Positions 9,988 to 17,412 of a DNA stretch of 64,000 nucleotides are shown here, in pieces. The notes beneath the pieces were generated by a model. It searched no databases. It was not told the DNA's origin and worked only from the letters and a program-made list of their open reading frames with translations. The stretch spans positions 1 through 64,000 of the forward strand of contig JAEKKJ010000020.1 in the NCBI GenBank assembly GCA_019510435.1. Reading direction: 5' to 3'. Made by a program: the position numbers and the translations under genes. This DNA is from Caulobacterales bacterium (lineage in GTDB: Bacteria > Pseudomonadota > Alphaproteobacteria > Caulobacterales > Caulobacteraceae). How positions within the stretch are numbered: position 1 is the first letter of the stretch; each line of letters begins with the position of its first letter.

Positions 9988-10021
9988 AACCGCGGAAAAC
10001 GCGGAAAGGCGCGGAAAGAAG
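9988..10021. repeat. Tripartite repeat TR1, left arm flanking GxxExxY gene 1
   Basis: Three consecutive copies of a CGCGGAAA-type 9-10-mer. It is the inverted counterpart of TR2 at 10475-10506, with only a few mismatches over about 30 bp. Together they bracket the GxxExxY gene and its LexA box. Confidence 0.8.
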
Positions 10022-10033
10022 GGGGAGAGTATC

Positions 10034-10048
10034 GTTCTTGTATTGTTC
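10034..10048 (+). promoter_or_regulatory. LexA box (SOS operator) of GxxExxY gene 1
   Basis: The sequence GTTCTTGTATTGTTC matches the alphaproteobacterial LexA consensus GTTC-N7-GTTC exactly, 30 bp before the ATG at 10079. The second GxxExxY gene has an equivalent box at the same distance, which makes chance agreement unlikely. The inference is LexA repression and induction after DNA damage. Confidence 0.8.
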
Positions 10049-10078
10049 CCGTCGGGCCGCGCCGCTAGGCTTCACGGC

Positions 10079-10507
10079 ATGCGATCCGACGGCGACGACC
10101 TGCTGTATGCTGAGGAGGCCTTCCAGCTGCGCGGCGCGGTATTCCACGTCTATCGCGCGATGGGCTCAGGGTTCCTGGAGGCGGTCTATCAGGAATGCCT
10201 CGTGATCGAACTTGCCCGCCGGGCCATCCCGTTCGTGGCGCAACCTTCGCTGGCGCTGGCTTACGAGGGCGTCCCGCTCAAGCAGAGCTACGTCGCCGAC
10301 TTCGTCTGCTTTGACCGTATCGTGCTCGAGTTGAAGGCGACGAGAAGCCTCGCGCCCGAGCATCGGGCGCAAGTCATCAACTATCTGCGGGCGACGGGTT
10401 TGAAACTCGGCCTTCTGGTGAACTTTGGCTCGGCCCCGCGAGTCGAAATCGAGCGCTTCGCGCTCAGTGGCCCGCCTTCCGCGTCTTCCGCGTTTTCCGC
10501 GGTTTGA
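10079..10507 (+). CDS. GxxExxY family protein (PD-(D/E)XK nuclease-like), copy 1
   Basis: The product has 142 residues. It shows the family signature GFLEAVY (G-x-x-E-x-x-Y) near residue 32, and a nuclease-like core in which DFVCFDRIVLELKA gives the Asp and the E-x-K of a PD-(D/E)XK fold. LAPEHRAQVINYLRA and GLLVNFG are also family-typical. It is about 60% identical by eye to copy 2 at 16976-17368. ATG at 10079 is chosen because it aligns with copy 2 and lies 30 bp after a LexA box. The family core ends at ERFAL. The last dozen codons (PPSASSAFSAV) and the stop are encoded inside tripartite repeat TR2. Biochemical function is not established for the family; nuclease activity is inferred from fold motifs. 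Confidence 0.88.
   Translation: MRSDGDDLLYAEEAFQLRGAVFHVYRAMGSGFLEAVYQECLVIELARRAIPFVAQPSLALAYEGVPLKQSYVADFVCFDRIVLELKATRSLAPEHRAQVINYLRATGLKLGLLVNFGSAPRVEIERFALSGPPSASSAFSAV
10475..10506. repeat. Tripartite repeat TR2, right arm overlapping the stop of GxxExxY gene 1
   Basis: Three tandem 9-mers of the form NTTCCGCGN, inverted relative to TR1. The repeat lies inside the coding frame and supplies the final codons of the gene up to its TGA at 10505-10507. This suggests the gene originally ended near ERFAL, as copy 2 does, and reads through into the repeat. Confidence 0.8.
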
Positions 10508-10522
10508 AAAACGGCGTCGCGG

Positions 10523-11386
10523 CTAGCTCCGCACGTGCTTCAGCTTCTCGGGGTTTCGCATCACATAGATGGCGGCGATCTTGCCGTCCTCGCCGGGTTC
10601 GAAGGCGAAGGTTTCGGGGCCGTCTTCCACCTCGAGCAGCAGGCCGGGGTAGCCATTGATCCGCACGGCCTCCAGGCTCTTGACCCCCAGGTCGCCGTGC
10701 CGCCACAGGATGCCCTGGAACAGGCGGATGACGTCGTCGCGGCCGACCATGACCCGCAGGGCCGCCGAACGCATGCCGCCGCCGTCGCTGACCAGGATGG
10801 CGTCCTCGGCCAGCAGCTCCGACAGGGCCTTGGTGTCGGCGGTGGCGCTGGCGGCTGCGAAGGCGGCCGCGAGCTTCATGGCCTTGGCCTGGTCGACGGA
10901 GAAGCGGGGCCGCGCATCCTGCACGTGCTCGCGGGCCCGGCTGGCCAGCTGGCGCACAGCCGCCTCAGTCCGCTCCAGGGTCTCGGCGACCACGGCGTAG
11001 TCCTGCTCGAAGACGTCGTGGAGCAGGAACACCGCCCGCTCCAGCGGCGACAGCCGCTCCAGGGCCAGCAGGAAGGCGATCGACACCTCCTCCGCCCGCT
11101 CGACCGGGTCGTCGGTCAGGGGCTCGATGAGGGGCTCCGGCAGCCAGGGTCCACGGTAGGCCTCCCGCTCGGCCTTGGCCGCCCGCAGCCGGTCGATGCA
11201 GAGCCGGGTGGTGGCTCGCACCAGCCAGGCGGCCGGGTCCTCCACGTCGGCGCCGGCCCGCTGCCAGCGCAGCCAGGCGTCCTGCACCGCATCGTCCGCC
11301 TCGGAGACCGAGCCCAGCATGCGGTAGGCCAGCCGCTTCAGGCGCGGCCGGTTGGCCTCGAAGGCCTCGGTGAGCGCTTGCGTCAT
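10523..11386 (-). CDS. ECF41-family RNA polymerase sigma factor with SnoaL-like C-terminal domain
   Basis: The product has 287 residues. Sigma region 2 (about 10-75) includes YRMLGSVSEADDAVQDAWLR; region 4 (about 105-160) includes LSPLERAVFLLHDVFEQDY. A SnoaL/NTF2-like extension follows from about residue 170. It carries VSDGGG and, at the end, NPEKL, corresponding to the DGGG and NPDKL motifs described for ECF41 proteins, where the extension controls sigma activity in place of a separate anti-sigma factor. ATG at 11386 is preferred to the GTG at 11395 because AAGGTGG lies 5 nt upstream. It is the last gene of a three-gene operon led by an exact ECF41-type promoter, so autoregulation is likely. 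The inducing signal is unknown. Confidence 0.93.
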   Translation of the reverse strand: MTQALTEAFEANRPRLKRLAYRMLGSVSEADDAVQDAWLRWQRAGADVEDPAAWLVRATTRLCIDRLRAAKAEREAYRGPWLPEPLIEPLTDDPVERAEEVSIAFLLALERLSPLERAVFLLHDVFEQDYAVVAETLERTEAAVRQLASRAREHVQDARPRFSVDQAKAMKLAAAFAAASATADTKALSELLAEDAILVSDGGGMRSAALRVMVGRDDVIRLFQGILWRHGDLGVKSLEAVRINGYPGLLLEVEDGPETFAFEPGEDGKIAAIYVMRNPEKLKHVRS

Positions 11387-11396
11387 GACCGCCACC

Positions 11397-11957
11397 TTAG
11401 GCCGCGAGCGCCGGCTGCGCGACCGGGTGCGGCGCGACCGGCTCGCCGGCCACCACGACCTTGGAGCACGCCTTGCCGTAGCCGAGGGCGTACTTCAGCG
11501 TCGGATACATGCGCGAGGCGGTCAGCGTCAGGCCGATGGCCACCAGCGCCGGCTCGCCCCAGCGCCGCACGATCTCGTCGCGCAGCGGGTCGCAGGCCTC
11601 CATGTCGCGCGCCAGGCTGGCCTTGGCGAAGCGGTAGGCCAAGGCCGCGGTCTCGCCCATCGCCGCCTCGTCGCCGGCCAGGATCGCGCGCAGCACCTTG
11701 GGATCGAGCCCTTGGGCGGTGGCGATGTCGACGCCCACCTGGGTACAGGGGCCGCAGTCCTCGCTGAGCGTGCCGACCAGGCCGGCGGCGACCAGCGCCT
11801 CCGGCGGCGCGGCCTTGCGGTCGGCGGCCTGGCTGCCCAGGGAGAACTTGAACAGGCTGGCGGGGCTGACTCGCAGCACGTGGCGCATGTAGCTGGCGTC
11901 GTAGTTGAAGGTCTTCTCGAACCCGTCGATCCAGCGGGTGAGGAACAGCTTCAGCAT
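11397..11957 (-). CDS. Carboxymuconolactone decarboxylase (AhpD-like) family protein
   Basis: The product has 186 residues. It contains EDCGPCTQVGVDIA near residue 67, matching the E-x-x-C-x-x-C catalytic segment of the CMD/AhpD family, whose members are peroxide- or thiol-active helical proteins. Genes for CMD proteins are typical neighbours and targets of ECF41 sigma factors. It starts 2 bp after the upstream membrane-protein gene and ends 10 bp before the sigma-factor ATG, so the three are co-transcribed. A redox-protective role is inferred from family and context only. Confidence 0.88.
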   Translation of the reverse strand: MLKLFLTRWIDGFEKTFNYDASYMRHVLRVSPASLFKFSLGSQAADRKAAPPEALVAAGLVGTLSEDCGPCTQVGVDIATAQGLDPKVLRAILAGDEAAMGETAALAYRFAKASLARDMEACDPLRDEIVRRWGEPALVAIGLTLTASRMYPTLKYALGYGKACSKVVVAGEPVAPHPVAQPALAA

Positions 11958-11959
11958 CG

Positions 11960-12352
11960 TCAGGCTCCTTTGGGCTTGGTGAAGAGGGCGAGGGCCAGCG
12001 GGATCGCCGCCAGCAGGTAGACGCCCACGAAATCGCGCTGGACGTCGGCCAGCGGGTGGGTCCCACAGGTCGCGTCATAGACGTGGATGGCGGCGTGCAG
12101 CGTCAGCCAGAGCGCCGCCCCGGCCAGCGCCGGCCAGCCCTGCGCGGGCCGCCAGGCGAACCACAGCAGGCCGGCCGCCGCGGCGGCGTAGATCGCGCCG
12201 ATGTCCTTGATGAAGTGGGCGTTGTAGGGCCCCGTCGAGGTCACCCCCGGCACCGCCTCGTACCAGGCCGGCCCCGCGAACAGCATCGCCAGGCCATTGC
12301 CCAGCAACACCAGCCCCGTCAGCCCGGCCACCCACCGCTGCCAGCTCGCCAT
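11960..12352 (-). CDS. Small four-helix membrane protein of the ECF41 operon
   Basis: The product has 130 residues with four predicted transmembrane segments (about 8-27, 48-66, 76-93 and 108-124). No named family is recognised with confidence; the layout resembles small DoxX-like or DUF-type integral membrane proteins. ATG at 12352 is supported by GGAGGG a few bases upstream and lies 26 bp below the -10-like CGTC element of the ECF41 promoter. As first gene of the operon it is probably a direct sigma target, perhaps involved in membrane redox protection together with the CMD protein; this is inference. Confidence 0.8.
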   Translation of the reverse strand: MASWQRWVAGLTGLVLLGNGLAMLFAGPAWYEAVPGVTSTGPYNAHFIKDIGAIYAAAAAGLLWFAWRPAQGWPALAGAALWLTLHAAIHVYDATCGTHPLADVQRDFVGVYLLAAIPLALALFTKPKGA

Positions 12353-12377
12353 GTTCCCTCCGTCCATCTGCAGCGAG

Positions 12378-12404
12378 GACGGCGGAGGCGCAGGGGTTGT
12401 GACA
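12378..12404 (-). promoter_or_regulatory. ECF41-type promoter (TGTCACA-N16-CGTC)
   Basis: On the minus strand TGTCACA (12404-12398) is followed after exactly 16 bases by CGTC (12381-12378). This is the consensus I know for ECF41 promoters. It sits just upstream of the operon whose third gene encodes an ECF41 sigma factor. Confidence 0.85.
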
Positions 12405-12490
12405 TTGGGCGGCACAAAAAAATGCGAAGGTCGAACCGCGGGAAGGCGGGCCGTCTTGGAGTTCCGCGCAGCGGAGGCTCGCTTATCCTT

Positions 12491-12518
12491 GTCCACGAAC
12501 CACACGAAAAGCACGAAC
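12491..12518. repeat. Tripartite repeat TR3, left arm of a perfect 28-bp inverted repeat
   Basis: Three CACGAA-containing units in tandem. The 28 bp are the exact reverse complement of 12554-12581, with a 35-bp spacer. No gene lies between the arms. The perfect match implies recent origin, gene conversion or selection. Confidence 0.9.
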
Positions 12519-12553
12519 GGGCTGACCTTCGCGCTGCGCTGGGCCGCTTCCCT

Positions 12554-12581
12554 GTTCGTGCTTTTCGTGTGGTTCGTGGAC
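12554..12581. repeat. Tripartite repeat TR4, right arm of a perfect 28-bp inverted repeat
   Basis: Three TTCGTG-containing units, exact reverse complement of TR3. The whole 91-bp structure could form a long hairpin in single-stranded DNA or RNA. The region 12353-12677 holds only this structure, the ECF41 promoter, the hairpin at 12596-12617 and TR5. Confidence 0.9.
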
Positions 12582-12595
12582 CAATAAGGACAGAG

Positions 12596-12617
12596 GCGCT
12601 TCGCGGCGCCGAAGCGC
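12596..12617. repeat. Short hairpin resembling the 3' end of GxxExxY genes
   Basis: GCGCTTCG and CGAAGCGC form an 8-bp perfect inverted repeat around a 6-nt loop. The right arm plus CTCG resembles the reverse complement of the codons for ERFAL that end GxxExxY genes and that also appear in the 100-bp tandem units at 16781-16980. It may be a relic of such a gene end. Confidence 0.5.
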
Positions 12618-12641
12618 TCGCTCTCTTCCGTGTCTCTCGCT

Positions 12642-12674
12642 CTCTTCCGCGTCTTCTGTGCCTTCTGCGGTTCG
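12642..12674. repeat. Tripartite repeat TR5, next to the HAD gene stop
   Basis: Three diverged 9-mers (CTTCCGCGT, CTTCTGTGC, CTTCTGCGG) of the same type as TR2, four bases from the stop codon of the HAD hydrolase gene. A further decayed unit precedes it at about 12624-12632. Confidence 0.7.
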
Positions 12675-12677
12675 AAA

Positions 12678-13373
12678 CTAGCTCAACCCCCGCACCCACG
12701 CCGGCAGGTCCGCGATGCTCGCCAGTTCGGCGAAGCGCGGATGGTCGGTGGGCGGGTCGGCGACTTCGTGGGCCCAGGTGATGTGGTAGGGGATGTGGGC
12801 GCCCCAGGCGCCGGCCTCGAGCGCCGGCAGGATGTCGGAGCGCAGGGAGTTGCCGGCCATCACCGCCTCGCCCGCCCCCGTGCCGTAGCGGTCAAAGACC
12901 CGGCGGTAGGTGGAGGCGTCCTTCTCGCTGACGATCTCCACGCCGACGAAGAGCTCCCCCAGGCCCGAGGCGGCCAGCTTCTGCTCCTGGTGCAGCAGGT
13001 CGCCCTTGGTGATCAGGACGAGGCGATAGTCCCGCGACAGCGCCGCCAGGGCCTCGTCCACGCCGGGCAGGGTCTCGACCGGGTGGTTCAGCATCTCGCG
13101 GCCCGCGGCCAGGATGTCGGCGATCATCGCCCCGGGTGCGGCGTTGCCGGTCAGCTCCATCGCCGTCTCGATCATCGACAGGGTGAAGCCCTTCACCCCG
13201 TAGCCGTAGAGCCGCAGGTTGCGCGCCTCCACCTCGGCCAGCTTGGCGTTCAGCGCCTCGGGCGGGGCGATGTCGGCCATCAGCGCCCGCAGCCGGTCCT
13301 GGGTCAGGCGGAAGATGGTCTCGTTGTGCCAGAGCGTGTCGTCGGCATCGAGGCCGACCGTGGTGATGCGCAT
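12678..13373 (-). CDS. HAD-superfamily hydrolase (phosphatase)
   Basis: The product has 231 residues. Motif I is LDADDTLWHN (D-x-D nucleophile and acid/base), motif II is the Thr in VLITKGD, and the acidic motif IV region is MAGNSLRSDILPALEAG. The insert between motifs is a helical C1 cap, as in phosphoglycolate-phosphatase-like members. Likely cytoplasmic and acting on small phosphate esters; substrate not predictable. ATG at 13373 is favoured over 13385 because GGAAG lies 5 nt upstream. The gene end abuts tripartite repeat TR5. Confidence 0.9.
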   Translation of the reverse strand: MRITTVGLDADDTLWHNETIFRLTQDRLRALMADIAPPEALNAKLAEVEARNLRLYGYGVKGFTLSMIETAMELTGNAAPGAMIADILAAGREMLNHPVETLPGVDEALAALSRDYRLVLITKGDLLHQEQKLAASGLGELFVGVEIVSEKDASTYRRVFDRYGTGAGEAVMAGNSLRSDILPALEAGAWGAHIPYHITWAHEVADPPTDHPRFAELASIADLPAWVRGLS

Positions 13374-13515
13374 GGCCGCTTCCATAAGAGCAGCGGGCGG
13401 CGGTGCGCAATCGCGCGGCGCCCGGCGCCACGGCGGCGGGCGCCGGGGCGCAATTCACGGGGGACGCGCCACCCGGCAAGCCTCCGGCAACGCCCGCACC
13501 CACTCTCTGAGGCCG

Positions 13516-14649
13516 ATGATTCGAAGACTCGCCCCGTTTTGGCTCGAAATCCTGTCCTGGCTGGATAGGATCACCGGCCGGGCCGCCGCTGACACGCGCG
13601 CGCGGCTGGCCGAGGAGCGCCTGCGCGATGTGATCGACGCGATCCCCGAGGGCGTCGTGTTCCTGGATCCCGAAGGGCGCTACATCCTCTGGAACCGGCG
13701 CTACGCGGAGATCTACCACCGGTCCGCCGACCTCTTCCGGCCCGGCGCGCGCCTCATCGACACCCTGCGCGAGGGCGTGGCGCGCGGGGACTATCCGGAC
13801 GCGATCGGCCGCGAAGACGCCTGGCTCGCCGACCGCGCGGCCAAGCTCGCCGCCGCCACCGGAGCGCGCCACGAGCAGCAGGTGGCGGACGGCCGGTGGC
13901 TGATGATCGAGGAGCGGCGCACCTCCGAGGGCGGCGTCATCGGCCTGCGGGTGGATATCACCGAGCTGAAGCGGCAGGCCGAGGCCCTCGAGCAGGCCCT
14001 GGCTCACGCCGAGGCGGCCCACCGCGCCAAGGCCGAGTTCCTGGCCGACATGAGCCACGAGCTGCGCACCCCGCTGAACGGCGTCACTGGGCTCGCCCAG
14101 GCGCTCGACGCCAGCGAACTCGACCCCGGCCAGCGCGCCCTGGTGGCCGACATCCGCGCGGCCGCGCGCCAGCTGGACCGGCTGGTCAACGGCCTCCTGG
14201 ACTATGGCGACGCCGACCTGGCGCCCGACGAGCGGCCCGTACCCGCGCCCGACCGGCCGCTGCGCATCCTGGCCGCCGACGACAACCCCACCAACCGCAA
14301 GGTCATCGCCCTGATGCTGGAGGCCGCCGGCGTGGAGGTGATGACCGTCGAGAACGGCTTCGAGGCGGTGGAGGCCTGGCGGGTTGGCGGGTTCGACGCG
14401 GTGCTCATGGACCTGCGCATGCCGGTGACCGACGGGCTCGCCGCGATCCGCGCCATCCGCGCCGAGGAGCACGGCACGGGCCGGCCGCGCACGCCCGCAG
14501 TGGTGCTGTCGGCCAACACCTCGCCCGAGGACCGGGCGGCCAGCGCCGCGGCGGGCGCCGACGGCCACATCGGCAAGCCGATCCGCGTGGAGGCGCTATT
14601 CGCCGCGCTGGATGCGGCCCTGCGGCCTCAGGCGGCGCAGGCCTCGTGA
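13516..14649 (+). CDS. PAS-DHp-receiver protein without an ATPase domain (histidine-kinase-like)
   Basis: The product has 377 residues. A PAS domain (about 38-150) carries VIDAIPEGVVFLDPEGRY and ends in VDITELKRQ. A coiled linker leads into a DHp/HisKA domain with the phospho-acceptor His in DMSHELRTPLNGV (about 176-188). After LLDYGDADLAPDE the chain passes straight into a receiver domain, with acidic pocket AADDNPTN, phospho-acceptor Asp in FDAVLMDLRMP and Lys in HIGKPI. The N, G1 and G2 boxes of the HATPase_c domain are absent. It therefore cannot autophosphorylate by itself. It may act as a phosphotransfer scaffold, or accept phosphate from another kinase. Start ATG at 13516 follows GAGGCC. 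Its end overlaps the convergent DUF1272 gene by 22 bp. Confidence 0.9.
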   Translation: MIRRLAPFWLEILSWLDRITGRAAADTRARLAEERLRDVIDAIPEGVVFLDPEGRYILWNRRYAEIYHRSADLFRPGARLIDTLREGVARGDYPDAIGREDAWLADRAAKLAAATGARHEQQVADGRWLMIEERRTSEGGVIGLRVDITELKRQAEALEQALAHAEAAHRAKAEFLADMSHELRTPLNGVTGLAQALDASELDPGQRALVADIRAAARQLDRLVNGLLDYGDADLAPDERPVPAPDRPLRILAADDNPTNRKVIALMLEAAGVEVMTVENGFEAVEAWRVGGFDAVLMDLRMPVTDGLAAIRAIRAEEHGTGRPRTPAVVLSANTSPEDRAASAAAGADGHIGKPIRVEALFAALDAALRPQAAQAS

Positions 14650-14873
14650 GGCTTGGTGAACCGCTCGCTCGAGGCCGGGAACTTCGCCAGCAGATGCGCG
14701 GGCCGGATGGGTCGCGCAACGAAGTCCCCGCCGCAGTTGGGGCAGGCGCCGCCGAGCCGGGTCTCCACGCAGTCCGCGCAGAAGGTGCATTCGAAGGTGC
14801 AGATCCGCGCCGCCGGGCTCTCCGGAGGCAGGTCGCGGTCGCAGCACTCGCAGTTGGGCTTGAGGATCAGCAT
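14628..14873 (-). CDS. DUF1272 domain protein (small Cys-rich)
   Basis: The product has 81 residues. Cysteine clusters CECC, CTFECTFCADC and CPNCGG match the DUF1272 family, predicted to bind zinc through paired cysteines. The family is widespread in proteobacteria and its function is unknown. ATG at 14873 gives the full conserved N-terminus (MLILKPNCECC). The gene converges on the preceding signalling gene. Confidence 0.9.
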   Translation of the reverse strand: MLILKPNCECCDRDLPPESPAARICTFECTFCADCVETRLGGACPNCGGDFVARPIRPAHLLAKFPASSERFTKPHEACAA

Positions 14874-14968
14874 GGGGCGATGATGGCGCCGGATGGGGCT
14901 GGCCGGAATGACAACGTCCCCTCGATTTCGGCCAGGGTGGGTCGCGTGTGAGCGCCAGCGCCCCGCCT

Positions 14969-15403
14969 CTAGTGTCCCAGCTCTCCGCCCTCGGCGAGCG
15001 GCGCCAGGCGCAGCAGCCGCGAATCCTCCACCGCGGCCGTCCGGTGCGGCACCACGTGCTCGCGGTAGTGCGGGTCGCGGACCATGTCGATGAAGGCCTG
15101 GGCGTTCGGGTACTCGGCGATGAAGGCCAGGTCCCAGGCCTCGGACGCCGGCCCCGTCACCATCACCTGCGGCTGGCCCGCCCACACCTGGCGCGCGCCC
15201 AGCCGCTCGAACACCGGGCCAATCGCGCGGCCATAGGCGCGGTAGGCCTCGGCGCCGGAGAGGCCCTTGCCGTGCTCGGGGCGCCCCTTCGGATAGTCGG
15301 CCTTCGCCTTCAGCTTCACCAGGTTCAGCATGTGGATGGGCTGGTCGCGCGGCAGGCCCTTGAAGACCTCCCAGGCCTCCCGGTCCGGATCGATGTACGA
15401 CAT
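14969..15403 (-). CDS. DUF1330 family protein
   Basis: The product has 144 residues. The pattern HMLNLVKLKAKADYP near the N-terminus, and AFIAEYPNAQAFIDMVRDP followed by HR in the second half, is typical of the DUF1330 dimeric alpha/beta-barrel (ferredoxin-like) fold. The function is not established. ATG at 15403 is preceded by GGGGGC. It is transcribed divergently from carA, with about 120 bp between the starts that must hold both promoters. Confidence 0.85.
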   Translation of the reverse strand: MSYIDPDREAWEVFKGLPRDQPIHMLNLVKLKAKADYPKGRPEHGKGLSGAEAYRAYGRAIGPVFERLGARQVWAGQPQVMVTGPASEAWDLAFIAEYPNAQAFIDMVRDPHYREHVVPHRTAAVEDSRLLRLAPLAEGGELGH

Positions 15404-15522
15404 TCTGCCCCCGATTGATTGACCCGCCGTCCGGGACTCACTACCTACGCGCCCGTTTGCCCAGGCGCCTAGAGGCGCCAATCCTCTAGCCGTCGCGCCC
15501 AGCGCGCGACAGGAGCGCGCCC

Positions 15523-16689
15523 ATGAGCCGTGATCTGCTGCCTGGCGTCACCGGCGTTCTCGCGCTGGCGGACGGGACCATCCTCCAGGGGATCGGCGTC
15601 GGCGCCGTCGGCGAGGCGGTGGGCGAGGTGTGCTTCAACACCGCCATGACCGGCTATCAGGAGATCCTCACCGACCCCTCCTACATGGCCCAGATCGTGG
15701 CCTTCACCTTCCCGCACATCGGCAATGTCGGGACCAATCTGGAAGACGTCGAGCAGATCGCCGGCACGGCCGAGACCGCCGCCCGCGGGGCGATCTTCCG
15801 CGACCTGCCCACCCGCCCGGCCAACTGGCGCGCGGACGCCGACCTGCCCACCTGGATGGCCCGTCGCGGCGTGGTCGGCATCGCCGGCGTCGACACCCGC
15901 GCCCTCACCCGCGCCATCCGCGAGCGCGGCATGCCGCACGGGGTGATCGCCCACCATCCGCAGGGCGAGTTCGACCTGGACGCCCTGGTCGCCAAGGCCA
16001 AGGCCTGGACGGGCCTCGTGGGCCTGGACCTCGCCAAGGACGCCTCCTGCCTGCAGCCCTTCGTCTACGAAGAGGGCCTGTGGGACTGGGAGGGCGGCTA
16101 CGCCAAGCTGGGCCAGCCGAAGTACGACGTCGTGGTCGTGGACTATGGCGTCAAGCGCAACATCCTGCGGGCCCTGACCTCGGTGGGCGCGCGGGTGACG
16201 GTGGTGCCGGCCAAGACCACGGCGGCAGAGATCCTGGCGCGCAACCCGGACGGGGTGCTGCTCTCCAACGGCCCCGGCGACCCGGCGGCCACCGGCGAAT
16301 ACGCCGTGCCGGAGATCCGCAAGCTGGTGGACAGCGGCAAGCCGGTGTTCGGCATCTGCCTCGGCCACCAGATGCTGGCCCTGGCGCTGGGCGCGACCAC
16401 CGTGAAGATGGACCAGGGCCACCACGGGGCGAACCATCCGGTGAAGGACCTGACCACCGGCAAGGTCGAGATCGTCTCCATGAACCACGGCTTCACCGTG
16501 GACCGCGACAGCCTGCCGGCCCCGATGGTCGAGACCCACATCTCCCTGTTCGACGGCACCAACGCGGGCCTGTCCCTGACCGACCGCCCCGTCTTCTCCA
16601 TCCAGCACCACCCGGAAGCCTCCCCCGGGCCGACCGACAGCCTCTACCTGTTCGAGCGGTTCGCGGGCTACATGGACGGGGCGAAGTAG
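15523..16689 (+). CDS. carA: Carbamoyl-phosphate synthase small (glutaminase) subunit
   Basis: CarA hydrolyses glutamine and channels ammonia to CarB for carbamoyl phosphate, the precursor of pyrimidines and arginine. The product has 388 residues, full length. The N-terminal CPSase domain contains [17 protein letters not shown]. The class I glutamine amidotransferase domain shows SNGPGDP, the nucleophile Cys in FGICLGHQ, and the His/Glu pair in [13 protein letters not shown] at 15523 follows AGGAG at 7-nt spacing. carB lies about 4.8 kb downstream on the same strand instead of directly adjoining. Confidence 0.98.
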
Positions 16690-16709
16690 GCGGCGGCGTC
16701 GTTTGGTTT

Positions 16710-16742
16710 GTCCACGAATGCACACGAATGAACACGAATGCG
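16710..16742. repeat. Tripartite repeat TR6, 20 bp after the carA stop
   Basis: Three tandem CACGAATG-containing 10-mers. It is inverted relative to TR7 and TR8 with few mismatches over 33 bp. The intergenic region 16690-16975 consists mostly of TR6 and the two 100-bp units. Confidence 0.88.
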
Positions 16743-16839
16743 CCCGTGGCCGATCCGCGGCCGTTCTCCATGAATAAGGAGCGCGAAGCGCTCGGGAACG
16801 TCTAGCGATCCGCTGCCCGGTAGCGCGCCAAGCCCGTTG

Positions 16840-16872
16840 CGCATTCGTGTGTATTCGCGTCCATTCGTGGAC
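16840..16872. repeat. Tripartite repeat TR7 (in 100-bp unit 1)
   Basis: Three ATTCGTG/ATTCGCG-containing 10-mers, inverted relative to TR6. Differs from TR8 by one base. Confidence 0.88.
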
Positions 16873-16939
16873 AATTCAAAGCACGAAGCGCTCGGAAACG
16901 TCTAGCAGTCCGCTGCCCGGTGGTACGCCAAGCCTGCTA

Positions 16940-16972
16940 CGCATTCGTGTGTATTCGTGTCCATTCGTGGAC
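16940..16972. repeat. Tripartite repeat TR8, next to the GxxExxY gene 2 stop
   Basis: Three ATTCGTG-containing 10-mers. On the gene strand the repeat begins within 4 bases of the TGA of GxxExxY gene 2. In gene 1 the corresponding repeat overlaps the last codons. Confidence 0.88.
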
Positions 16973-16975
16973 AAT

Positions 16976-17368
16976 TCAAAGCGCGAAGCGCTCGATCTGT
17001 ATTTTCGCCCCAGCCCCGAAGTTGATCAGCAGCCCGACCTTGAGATTTCCCGCCTTCAGGTAGTTCAGCACTTGCGCCCGATGCTCCGGCGCCAGCGTCC
17101 TGACCGCCTTCAGCTCGACGACAATGGCGTCAAAGCAGATGAAATCGGGCGTATAGGTCTGCTGCAGCGGGACCCCATCGTAGCTGAGCGCCAGCCGCGG
17201 CGTCGCTCGAAACGGCACACCGCGCCGGCCAAACTCGATGGTCAGGCACTCCTGATAGACGGCCTCGAGAAACCCGCAACCGATCGTGTTGCTAACCGCG
17301 AACGCGGCGCCCTGAATCCGGAAGACTTCCTCCGGAAAGAACAATTCCGAGCCTTGAGCGTCGTCCAT
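16976..17368 (-). CDS. GxxExxY family protein (PD-(D/E)XK nuclease-like), copy 2
   Basis: The product has 130 residues. It shares GFLEAVYQECL, the nuclease-like DFICFDAIVVELKA with E-x-K, LAPEHRAQVLNYLKA and GLLINFG with copy 1. It ends exactly at IERFAL, which marks the natural family end. ATG at 17368 follows a LexA box by 29 bp, the same geometry as copy 1. The stop codon abuts tripartite repeat TR8. The two copies are diverged (about 60% identity by eye) and lie in opposite orientation 6.5 kb apart, so they are not a recent duplication. Function is unknown; DNA cleavage or processing under SOS control is the natural hypothesis. Confidence 0.88.
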   Translation of the reverse strand: MDDAQGSELFFPEEVFRIQGAAFAVSNTIGCGFLEAVYQECLTIEFGRRGVPFRATPRLALSYDGVPLQQTYTPDFICFDAIVVELKAVRTLAPEHRAQVLNYLKAGNLKVGLLINFGAGAKIQIERFAL

Positions 17369-17397
17369 GAACGCACGATAGCTTCCTTGTTCGATAA

Positions 17398-17412
17398 GAA
17401 CAATACGGGAAC
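17398..17412 (-). promoter_or_regulatory. LexA box (SOS operator) of GxxExxY gene 2
   Basis: On the minus strand the sequence GTTCCCGTATTGTTC matches GTTC-N7-GTTC exactly and shares a GTATTGTTC half with the box of copy 1. It ends 29 bp before the ATG. Confidence 0.8.

Follow-up and report, generated by a model that had tools for sequence, protein, structure and literature searches.

A candidate mobile DNA system composed of GxxExxY genes and cognate inverted repeats

We analyzed a 64,000-nucleotide stretch of the genome of a Caulobacterales bacterium (GenBank assembly GCA_019510435.1, contig JAEKKJ010000020.1, positions 1 to 64,000), hereafter the window, which carries two GxxExxY genes and a series of short repeats. 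Each repeat, or arm, consists of three CRCRRA units spaced about one helical turn apart, and arms commonly occur as inverted pairs. GxxExxY genes and arms are cognate: a gene with arms typically has its own sequence variant, or flavor, of the arm, and arm sequence follows protein sequence across phyla. A GxxExxY gene plus its matched repeats looks like an undescribed mobile DNA system. By analogy, we suggest with a probability of roughly 0.6 that it resembles the system formed by REP-associated tyrosine transposases (RAYTs) and the hairpin-forming doublets of repetitive extragenic palindromic (REP) sequences known as REPINs, with a predicted nuclease and its cognate miniature hairpins built on an unrelated enzyme. 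This window lies on contig C55 of the 5.1-Mb genome designated G000.

Pairing of GxxExxY genes with three-unit arms

The association was measured in a uniform set of 153 GxxExxY genes (46 from the same genus, 29 from the phylum and 78 from named loci), in which an arm was scored when three exact units with periods of 8-12 lay in the expected orientation within about 260 bp of the gene. Exact arms were found near 108 of the 153 genes (36 genus, 27 phylum and 45 named), while the reversed motif was found near none, which rules out chance repeats. Allowing one mismatch increased the count to 136 genes; since the control then rose to 20, the exact count is the safe figure. Period pairs of matched arms were mostly 9-9, 9-10, 10-10 or 9-11, with period 8 also present when allowed. 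In one scan of public genomes, 33 of 80 named loci had a three-unit arm within 250 bp (reversed control, 0) and 64 had two units (control, 1). Arms were seen in Planctomycetota, Verrucomicrobiota, Chloroflexota, Acidobacteriota, Bacteroidota, Cyanobacteria, Spirochaetota and Methanosarcinales archaea, those of Cyanobacteria appearing only when a period of 8 was allowed (4 of 5 re-examined cyanobacterial genes). Among other alphaproteobacteria, 7 of 19 genes had arms (control, 0).

The two arms of a gene resemble one another. In 69 genes with both arms, variable positions matched at a frequency of 0.88, as opposed to 0.50 after shuffling (maximum of 2000 shuffles, 0.58), and periods agreed at 0.87 versus 0.41. 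Arms also track the protein: protein identity and arm similarity were correlated across 102 genes with a Mantel r of 0.554 (null maximum, 0.099) after removal of 234 syntenic pairs, and correlations within the sets were 0.52, 0.29 and 0.39. The period pair alone did not track the protein in the genus set (r -0.08). The base in the seventh position of the unit follows protein motifs: GLLE proteins have G (63 of 66), FLE..YQ proteins C or A (29 of 29), FLE..YE proteins T (5 of 5) and one FLE..YH protein A. These counts come from related and not independent proteins. The initial annotation of the window, which was made from sequence alone, had suggested that the GxxExxY protein acts on the repeats and had called for an enrichment check across genomes; with the reversed-motif control in place, both the enrichment and the sequence matches support the repeats as specific partners of the gene.

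Genus genes located just downstream of carA provide a comparison at one location. They belong to more than one clade, different clades follow carA in different species, and their distribution requires nine label changes on the tree, at least four of them forced by well-supported branches. Arm flavor at this location follows protein clade, not position. Because the genes next to carA show some clustering in the tree (a value as low arose in 10 of 500 shuffles), the case for a repeated target rests on the four forced changes; the region downstream of carA is likely a repeated insertion site.

At the level of whole genomes, at least four arms were present in 38 of 57 PF13366-positive and 14 of 242 PF13366-negative genomes (Fisher p 2e-22, which overstates independence because genomes of family f28 fill much of both groups). 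Genomes G018 and G026 have no PF13366 match and carry CGCAGATTT-type arms, which in G018 form outward '- +' pairs. The four-helix-bundle family PF05635 was considered as another owner of the repeats and rejected, as it occurred in 3 of 15 genomes and had an exact arm at 0 of 5 loci. A small cluster of four-helix-bundle-like genes, named by eye, lies near 3 of 75 GxxExxY loci, including L203. A description of the association was not found in the open-licence literature, where mentions of GxxExxY are incidental, although one elsewhere is not excluded; searches of the same literature with the repeat strings returned no relevant paper.

Dispersed pairs and their distribution among relatives

A strict arm motif occurs 73 times in the whole G000 genome and its reversed form twice; the pattern allowed only N4 as its second gap, and 9-9 arms therefore fall outside the 73. 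The genome has five profile-positive GxxExxY genes. Four have arms within their fetched 3.3-kb loci, with a different flavor for every gene (CGCGGAA, CACGAAT, CGCAGAG and CACGAACC), and the fifth (L001) has none in its 3.3-kb locus. Loci fetched from G000 contain 38 distinct '+ -' inverted pairs, one of them beside window gene 2, with the consensus TTSAAC|CRCRRA common to both ends. As read by eye, 19 are of the CGCGGAA flavor, 12 CACGAAT, 5 CGCAGAG and 2 CACGAACC, all of them flavors of resident genes, and dispersed pairs share the flavor of a resident gene in G306, G321 and G322 as well. Five pairs folded as single-stranded DNA formed hairpins with z scores of -6.7 to -10.9. No Rfam element was matched at gathering score in the window or in 11 loci. 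In G306 (L236-L255), inward pairs are accompanied by outward doublets about 71 bp apart that share a similar core, an arrangement like that of REP clusters, and at L243, L246 and L254 a second repeat family of the TCATCCCGG...CCGGGATGA type is inserted between the arms of a pair.

Copies of one arm are concentrated in a single lineage. The gene at C1:234893 has a 24-base arm of which 15 exact copies occur in its own genome (23 with one mismatch) and 3 in G338, and no exact copy was found in the other 99 congeners. Orthologues of this locus in G340 and G356 differ in the second unit of the upstream arm, and that of G340 differs in both arms; in G000 both arms have changed alike. We read these copies as probable recent spread or homogenization within the lineage.

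Relatives differ in the presence of elements at three sites. At site A, between dnaG and a sigma factor gene, an element is present in the window and in G333, while the other eight of nine fetched relatives have no arm; just 72-126 bp separate the genes in G312, G395, G259 and G396. At site B (12320-12700), the solo CACGAACC pair of the window was compared with five relatives: G324 has 56 bp and no element, G331 has one arm plus another repeat, G318 has a pair nested within another pair, G376 has a gene with CACGGATTT arms (in sequence that holds Ns), and G259 has a gene plus a CACGGACCAT pair. At site C, between carA and a fasciclin-like gene, the neighbor found in the window is retained in 11 of 40 fetched carA regions of relatives; 10 of these have no exact arm between the genes and one (G355) has nested arms. 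The comparison proposed in the initial annotation yielded differences in presence, although the precise junctions it sought are only approximate, as the flanks are just 68-93% identical. Its view that gene and repeats form a small mobile unit points in the right direction, given the presence/absence differences and the lineage-specific copies. Carriage as phage or plasmid cargo was rejected on a search with one query protein, which gave relatives in 0 of 50,697 phage and 8 of 72,556 plasmid records. In the single viral scan made, which used a typed query, no relative was found on viral contigs.

Proteins, LexA-type boxes and features of the window

Both window proteins match PF13366 and TIGR04256 at 133-135 bits, well above the curated cut-offs of 22 and 35 (E 7e-39 to 3e-39), confirming the assignment of two GxxExxY genes, and neither matches any other profile at E 0.001. 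One query has 7,526 homologues, and the named ones among the closest are from Phenylobacterium and Caulobacteraceae. The predicted fold is Cas4/lambda-exonuclease-like, with a Cas4 DNA nuclease nearest and tRNA-splicing endonucleases lower in the list, and the catalytic D, ExK and QxxxY residues and the fold features of the Cas4/RecB/lambda-exonuclease branch of PD-(D/E)XK enzymes are present. Modeling therefore suggests that GxxExxY is a minimal nuclease of this type, with about 120-140 residues. Cas4 has iron-sulfur-cluster cysteines; in GxxExxY no cysteine is found among the invariant or nearly invariant columns, and there is thus no sign of such a cluster. The family differs from the Cas4, lambda exonuclease, RecE and MGME1 branch in this respect and in its lack of conserved neighbors. 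Across 75 loci no conserved neighbor gene was found; the largest neighbor cluster (9 loci) looks like the antisense frame of the gene itself and was rejected as a partner, and the second contains an ABC-transporter-like protein in 5 of the 75. A scan of four proteins for known defence genes gave no confident match and one weak similarity to Cas4 (E 0.002), and very weak matches to an endonuclease PHROG (E 0.028) and to T7 endonuclease I (E 1.7) were not used.

A GTTC-N7-GTTC box, which resembles a LexA operator, had been reported before the ATG of each window gene and is present at both (Table 1). Among the 46 genus genes, a box of this type precedes 23 of 29 genes in one protein clade and 0 of 17 in the other, with a reversed control of 1 in 46. 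Twenty-two of the 23 boxes end 27-33 bp before the called ATG; the start of L125 is uncertain. Because the motif has 118 matches genome-wide, compared with 33 for its reversed form, a single box is weak evidence and the fixed position carries the case. The start of the genome's lexA domain also has a box of the same form 40 bp away, oriented the other way. GTTC-N7-GTTC was found at none of the genes from other alphaproteobacteria (0/19), the phylum set (0/29) or the named loci (0/78), and CTGT-N8-ACAG was found at none of the 153 genes. By its placement, the box probably puts the GxxExxY gene under LexA control in one own-genus clade, and the broader claim of LexA control was not upheld beyond it.

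Layouts vary within the genus. The order is arm, box, gene in 9 of the 46 genes and box, arm, gene in 6, with the arm inside the first codons; 8 have a box and no upstream arm, 14 an arm and no box, and 9 neither. For five of the eight (L003, L105, L126, L131 and L134), both arms of the pair are located 3′ of the gene. As arms do not always flank the gene, the arrangement resembles RAYT genes and their neighboring REPINs more than a fixed-end transposon.

The window itself illustrates this variety (Table 1). The initial annotation had described at least eight tripartite repeats arranged as inverted pairs near gene ends. Eight arms are present, but the arm at 12646 is unpaired and gene 2 is not bracketed, its inverted pair lying entirely 3′. 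The pair at 12494-12578 belongs to neither window gene and has the exact arm of a third GxxExxY gene, located elsewhere in the genome at C1:234893. The lone arm may be what is left of an earlier pair that was interrupted by insertion of the solo pair. Gene 2 was left out of the 108 arm-bearing genes and the 102-gene set because its inverted arm falls just past 260 bp. The 100-bp tandem duplication 3′ of gene 2 spans 16780-16979 (16780-16879 and 16880-16979), and its copies are 89% identical, with one inverted arm each.

Table 1. Arms, LexA-type boxes and GxxExxY genes in the window
Feature	Position	Strand	Remarks
Upstream tripartite arm of gene 1	9991..10015	+	CGCGGAA flavor; periods 9,10
GTTC-N7-GTTC, LexA-box-like	10034..10048	+	Between arm and gene 1; ends 30 bp before ATG
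GxxExxY gene 1	10079..10507	+	PF13366/TIGR04256; predicted PD-(D/E)XK nuclease
Downstream inverted tripartite arm of gene 1	10478..10501	-	Overlaps last codons of the gene
Left arm of solo (gene-less) inverted pair	12494..12517	+	CACGAACCA-CACGAAAAG flavor
Right arm of solo pair	12555..12578	-	Pair folds as hairpin, z -10.4
Lone arm	12646..12669	-	CGCAGAAGG flavor; no clean partner
Arm of pair 3′ of gene 2	16713..16738	+	CACGAATG flavor; periods 10,10
Inverted partner arm	16844..16869	-	Inside tandemly duplicated 100-bp unit
Second copy of inverted arm	16944..16969	-	Inside duplicated 100-bp unit
GxxExxY gene 2	16976..17368	-	PF13366/TIGR04256; convergent with carA
GTTC-N7-GTTC, LexA-box-like, upstream of gene 2	17398..17412	-	Ends 29 bp before ATG

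Proposed mechanism and alternatives

In the RAYT/REPIN-like system we propose, each GxxExxY nuclease would recognize its own flavor of the three-unit CRCRRA arm, the protein presumably binding three units per arm and two arms per doublet. Two inverted arms, flanking the gene or lying beside it, would form a hairpin-capable doublet. Acting in trans on dispersed doublets, the nuclease would allow them to spread as miniature non-autonomous elements, as has been proposed for RAYTs and REPINs. It may cut each hairpin at its outer ends, marked by the TTSAAC|CRCRRA border, after which host repair would paste the hairpin at another site in the genome, and in one own-genus clade LexA control might tie this movement to DNA damage. 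That the nuclease moves the repeats is what we infer from the sequence comparisons above.

Several observations weigh against this proposal. To our knowledge, Cas4-like nucleases do not act as transposases. No target-site duplication was found above the palindromic end signal in the 38 G000 pairs, and, with flanks this diverged in the relatives, no excision or insertion event was seen at base resolution. Similarity of the two arms within a pair (0.897) does not exceed that between pairs of the same flavor (0.900), so covariation lends no support to the hairpin. The match between flavor and gene has exceptions: window gene 2 encodes an FLE..YQ protein and has T at arm base 7, G000 contains a pair of a fifth flavor (CACGGACCAT, C54:272888-272954) for which no resident gene was seen and which accompanies genes in G259 and G312, and the two genes fetched from G338, which holds three exact copies of the G000 arm, are of other flavors. 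Of the 153 genes, 26 have nearby exact arms that point the opposite way, and the 14 PF13366-negative genomes with at least four arms have already been mentioned. Many GxxExxY genes are inherited in place, and the scarcity of plasmid and phage records argues against easy mobility.

The last two points would be expected if GxxExxY were a resident nuclease for genome processing or repair, induced by the SOS response in one clade, with arms serving as an autoregulatory operator or processing site and dispersed pairs maintained by selection rather than as selfish elements. The vertical conservation applies to gene and site alike, and the fixed registers of arm and LexA box from the start codon also fit such a role. 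We nevertheless consider it unlikely, as it does not readily accommodate presence/absence between conserved genes at three sites, the lineage-specific burst of one exact arm, nested pairs, or very different flavors within one genus.

Alternatively, the arms might be moved by an unrelated enzyme, such as a RAYT or insertion sequence (IS) transposase acting in trans, with GxxExxY genes simply situated within or next to such repeats. Arm-rich genomes without PF13366, such as G018 with its '- +' pairs, would fit, as would the 8 of 46 genus genes with a box and no upstream arm, including those whose pair is 3′. Such a mover is improbable given that arm sequence tracks GxxExxY sequence across phyla, that resident and dispersed flavors agree, and that no neighboring gene is conserved.

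Two further possibilities we regard as very improbable. If the pairs were RNA hairpins (terminators or processing sites) bound or cut by the protein as an RNase, the strong folding of five pairs would be explained, albeit with DNA parameters, but the absence of Rfam matches in the window and 11 loci and the nearness of the fold to a Cas4 DNA nuclease, albeit with tRNA-splicing endonucleases lower in the list, are against it, and the unit code and helical spacing seem better suited to the reading of duplex DNA. Homing-endonuclease-like spread, in which a gene-less pair is cut by the nuclease and receives the gene through copying during repair, is suggested by the gene that G259 has at site B in place of the window's solo pair and by the like changes in both arms at C1:234893; however, the flavors at site B differ, meaning that the G259 gene is not a filled version of the window pair, and pairs outnumber genes in G000 by 38 to 5.

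Comparison with known systems places the RAYT/REPIN-like proposal more exactly. As REPINs and RAYTs are described by Bertels and Rainey 2011 (PMC3116915), both systems have inverted hairpin doublets in extragenic space with a cognate chromosomal gene nearby, several flavors per genome each with its own gene, and clustered copies. The RAYT enzyme is a tyrosine (Y1/HUH) transposase and each REPIN arm is a short palindrome, as opposed to a PD-(D/E)XK nuclease and an arm of three direct CRCRRA units. The GxxExxY system also extends to archaea and many phyla and has a LexA box in one clade. Dispersed hairpin doublets and, apart from the CACGGACCAT pair and G338, the tie between flavor and gene are thus found here, while the transposase is not, and membership in REPIN-RAYT fails on the enzyme. 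Rpn proteins (YhgA-like, PF04754) share a PD-(D/E)XK core with GxxExxY and promote recombination (Kingston 2017, PMC5350276); one paralogue is reported there to have inserted independently more than once at a single location, and RpnA shows little, if any, sequence specificity. They belong to a different Pfam family, as the window proteins have no PF04754 match, PF13366 being their sole Pfam hit at E 0.001. We know of no cognate repeats for Rpn nucleases. Miniature inverted-repeat transposable elements derived from IS elements are likewise short and gene-less, with inverted ends related to those of a gene-bearing copy; the GxxExxY unit differs in having no DDE transposase, and no target-site duplication was found at the 38 pairs.

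The most far-reaching form of the proposal, to which we assign somewhat less than an even chance, is that a stand-alone Cas4-like nuclease is the sole enzyme of a bacterial and archaeal class of mobile elements, with a three-unit code, doublets mobilized in trans and a DNA-damage switch in one lineage. If true, this would give a function to a family known only by its motif name and would explain the short repeats found in many environmental genomes as a single family whose protein-DNA code can be partly read. Made up of CRCRRA and a seventh base that is mostly specific to the clade, the code makes specificity directly testable. It would also represent a nuclease-only route to DNA mobility and a class of transposition enzyme distinct from the DDE, HUH, serine, tyrosine and reverse-transcriptase enzymes.

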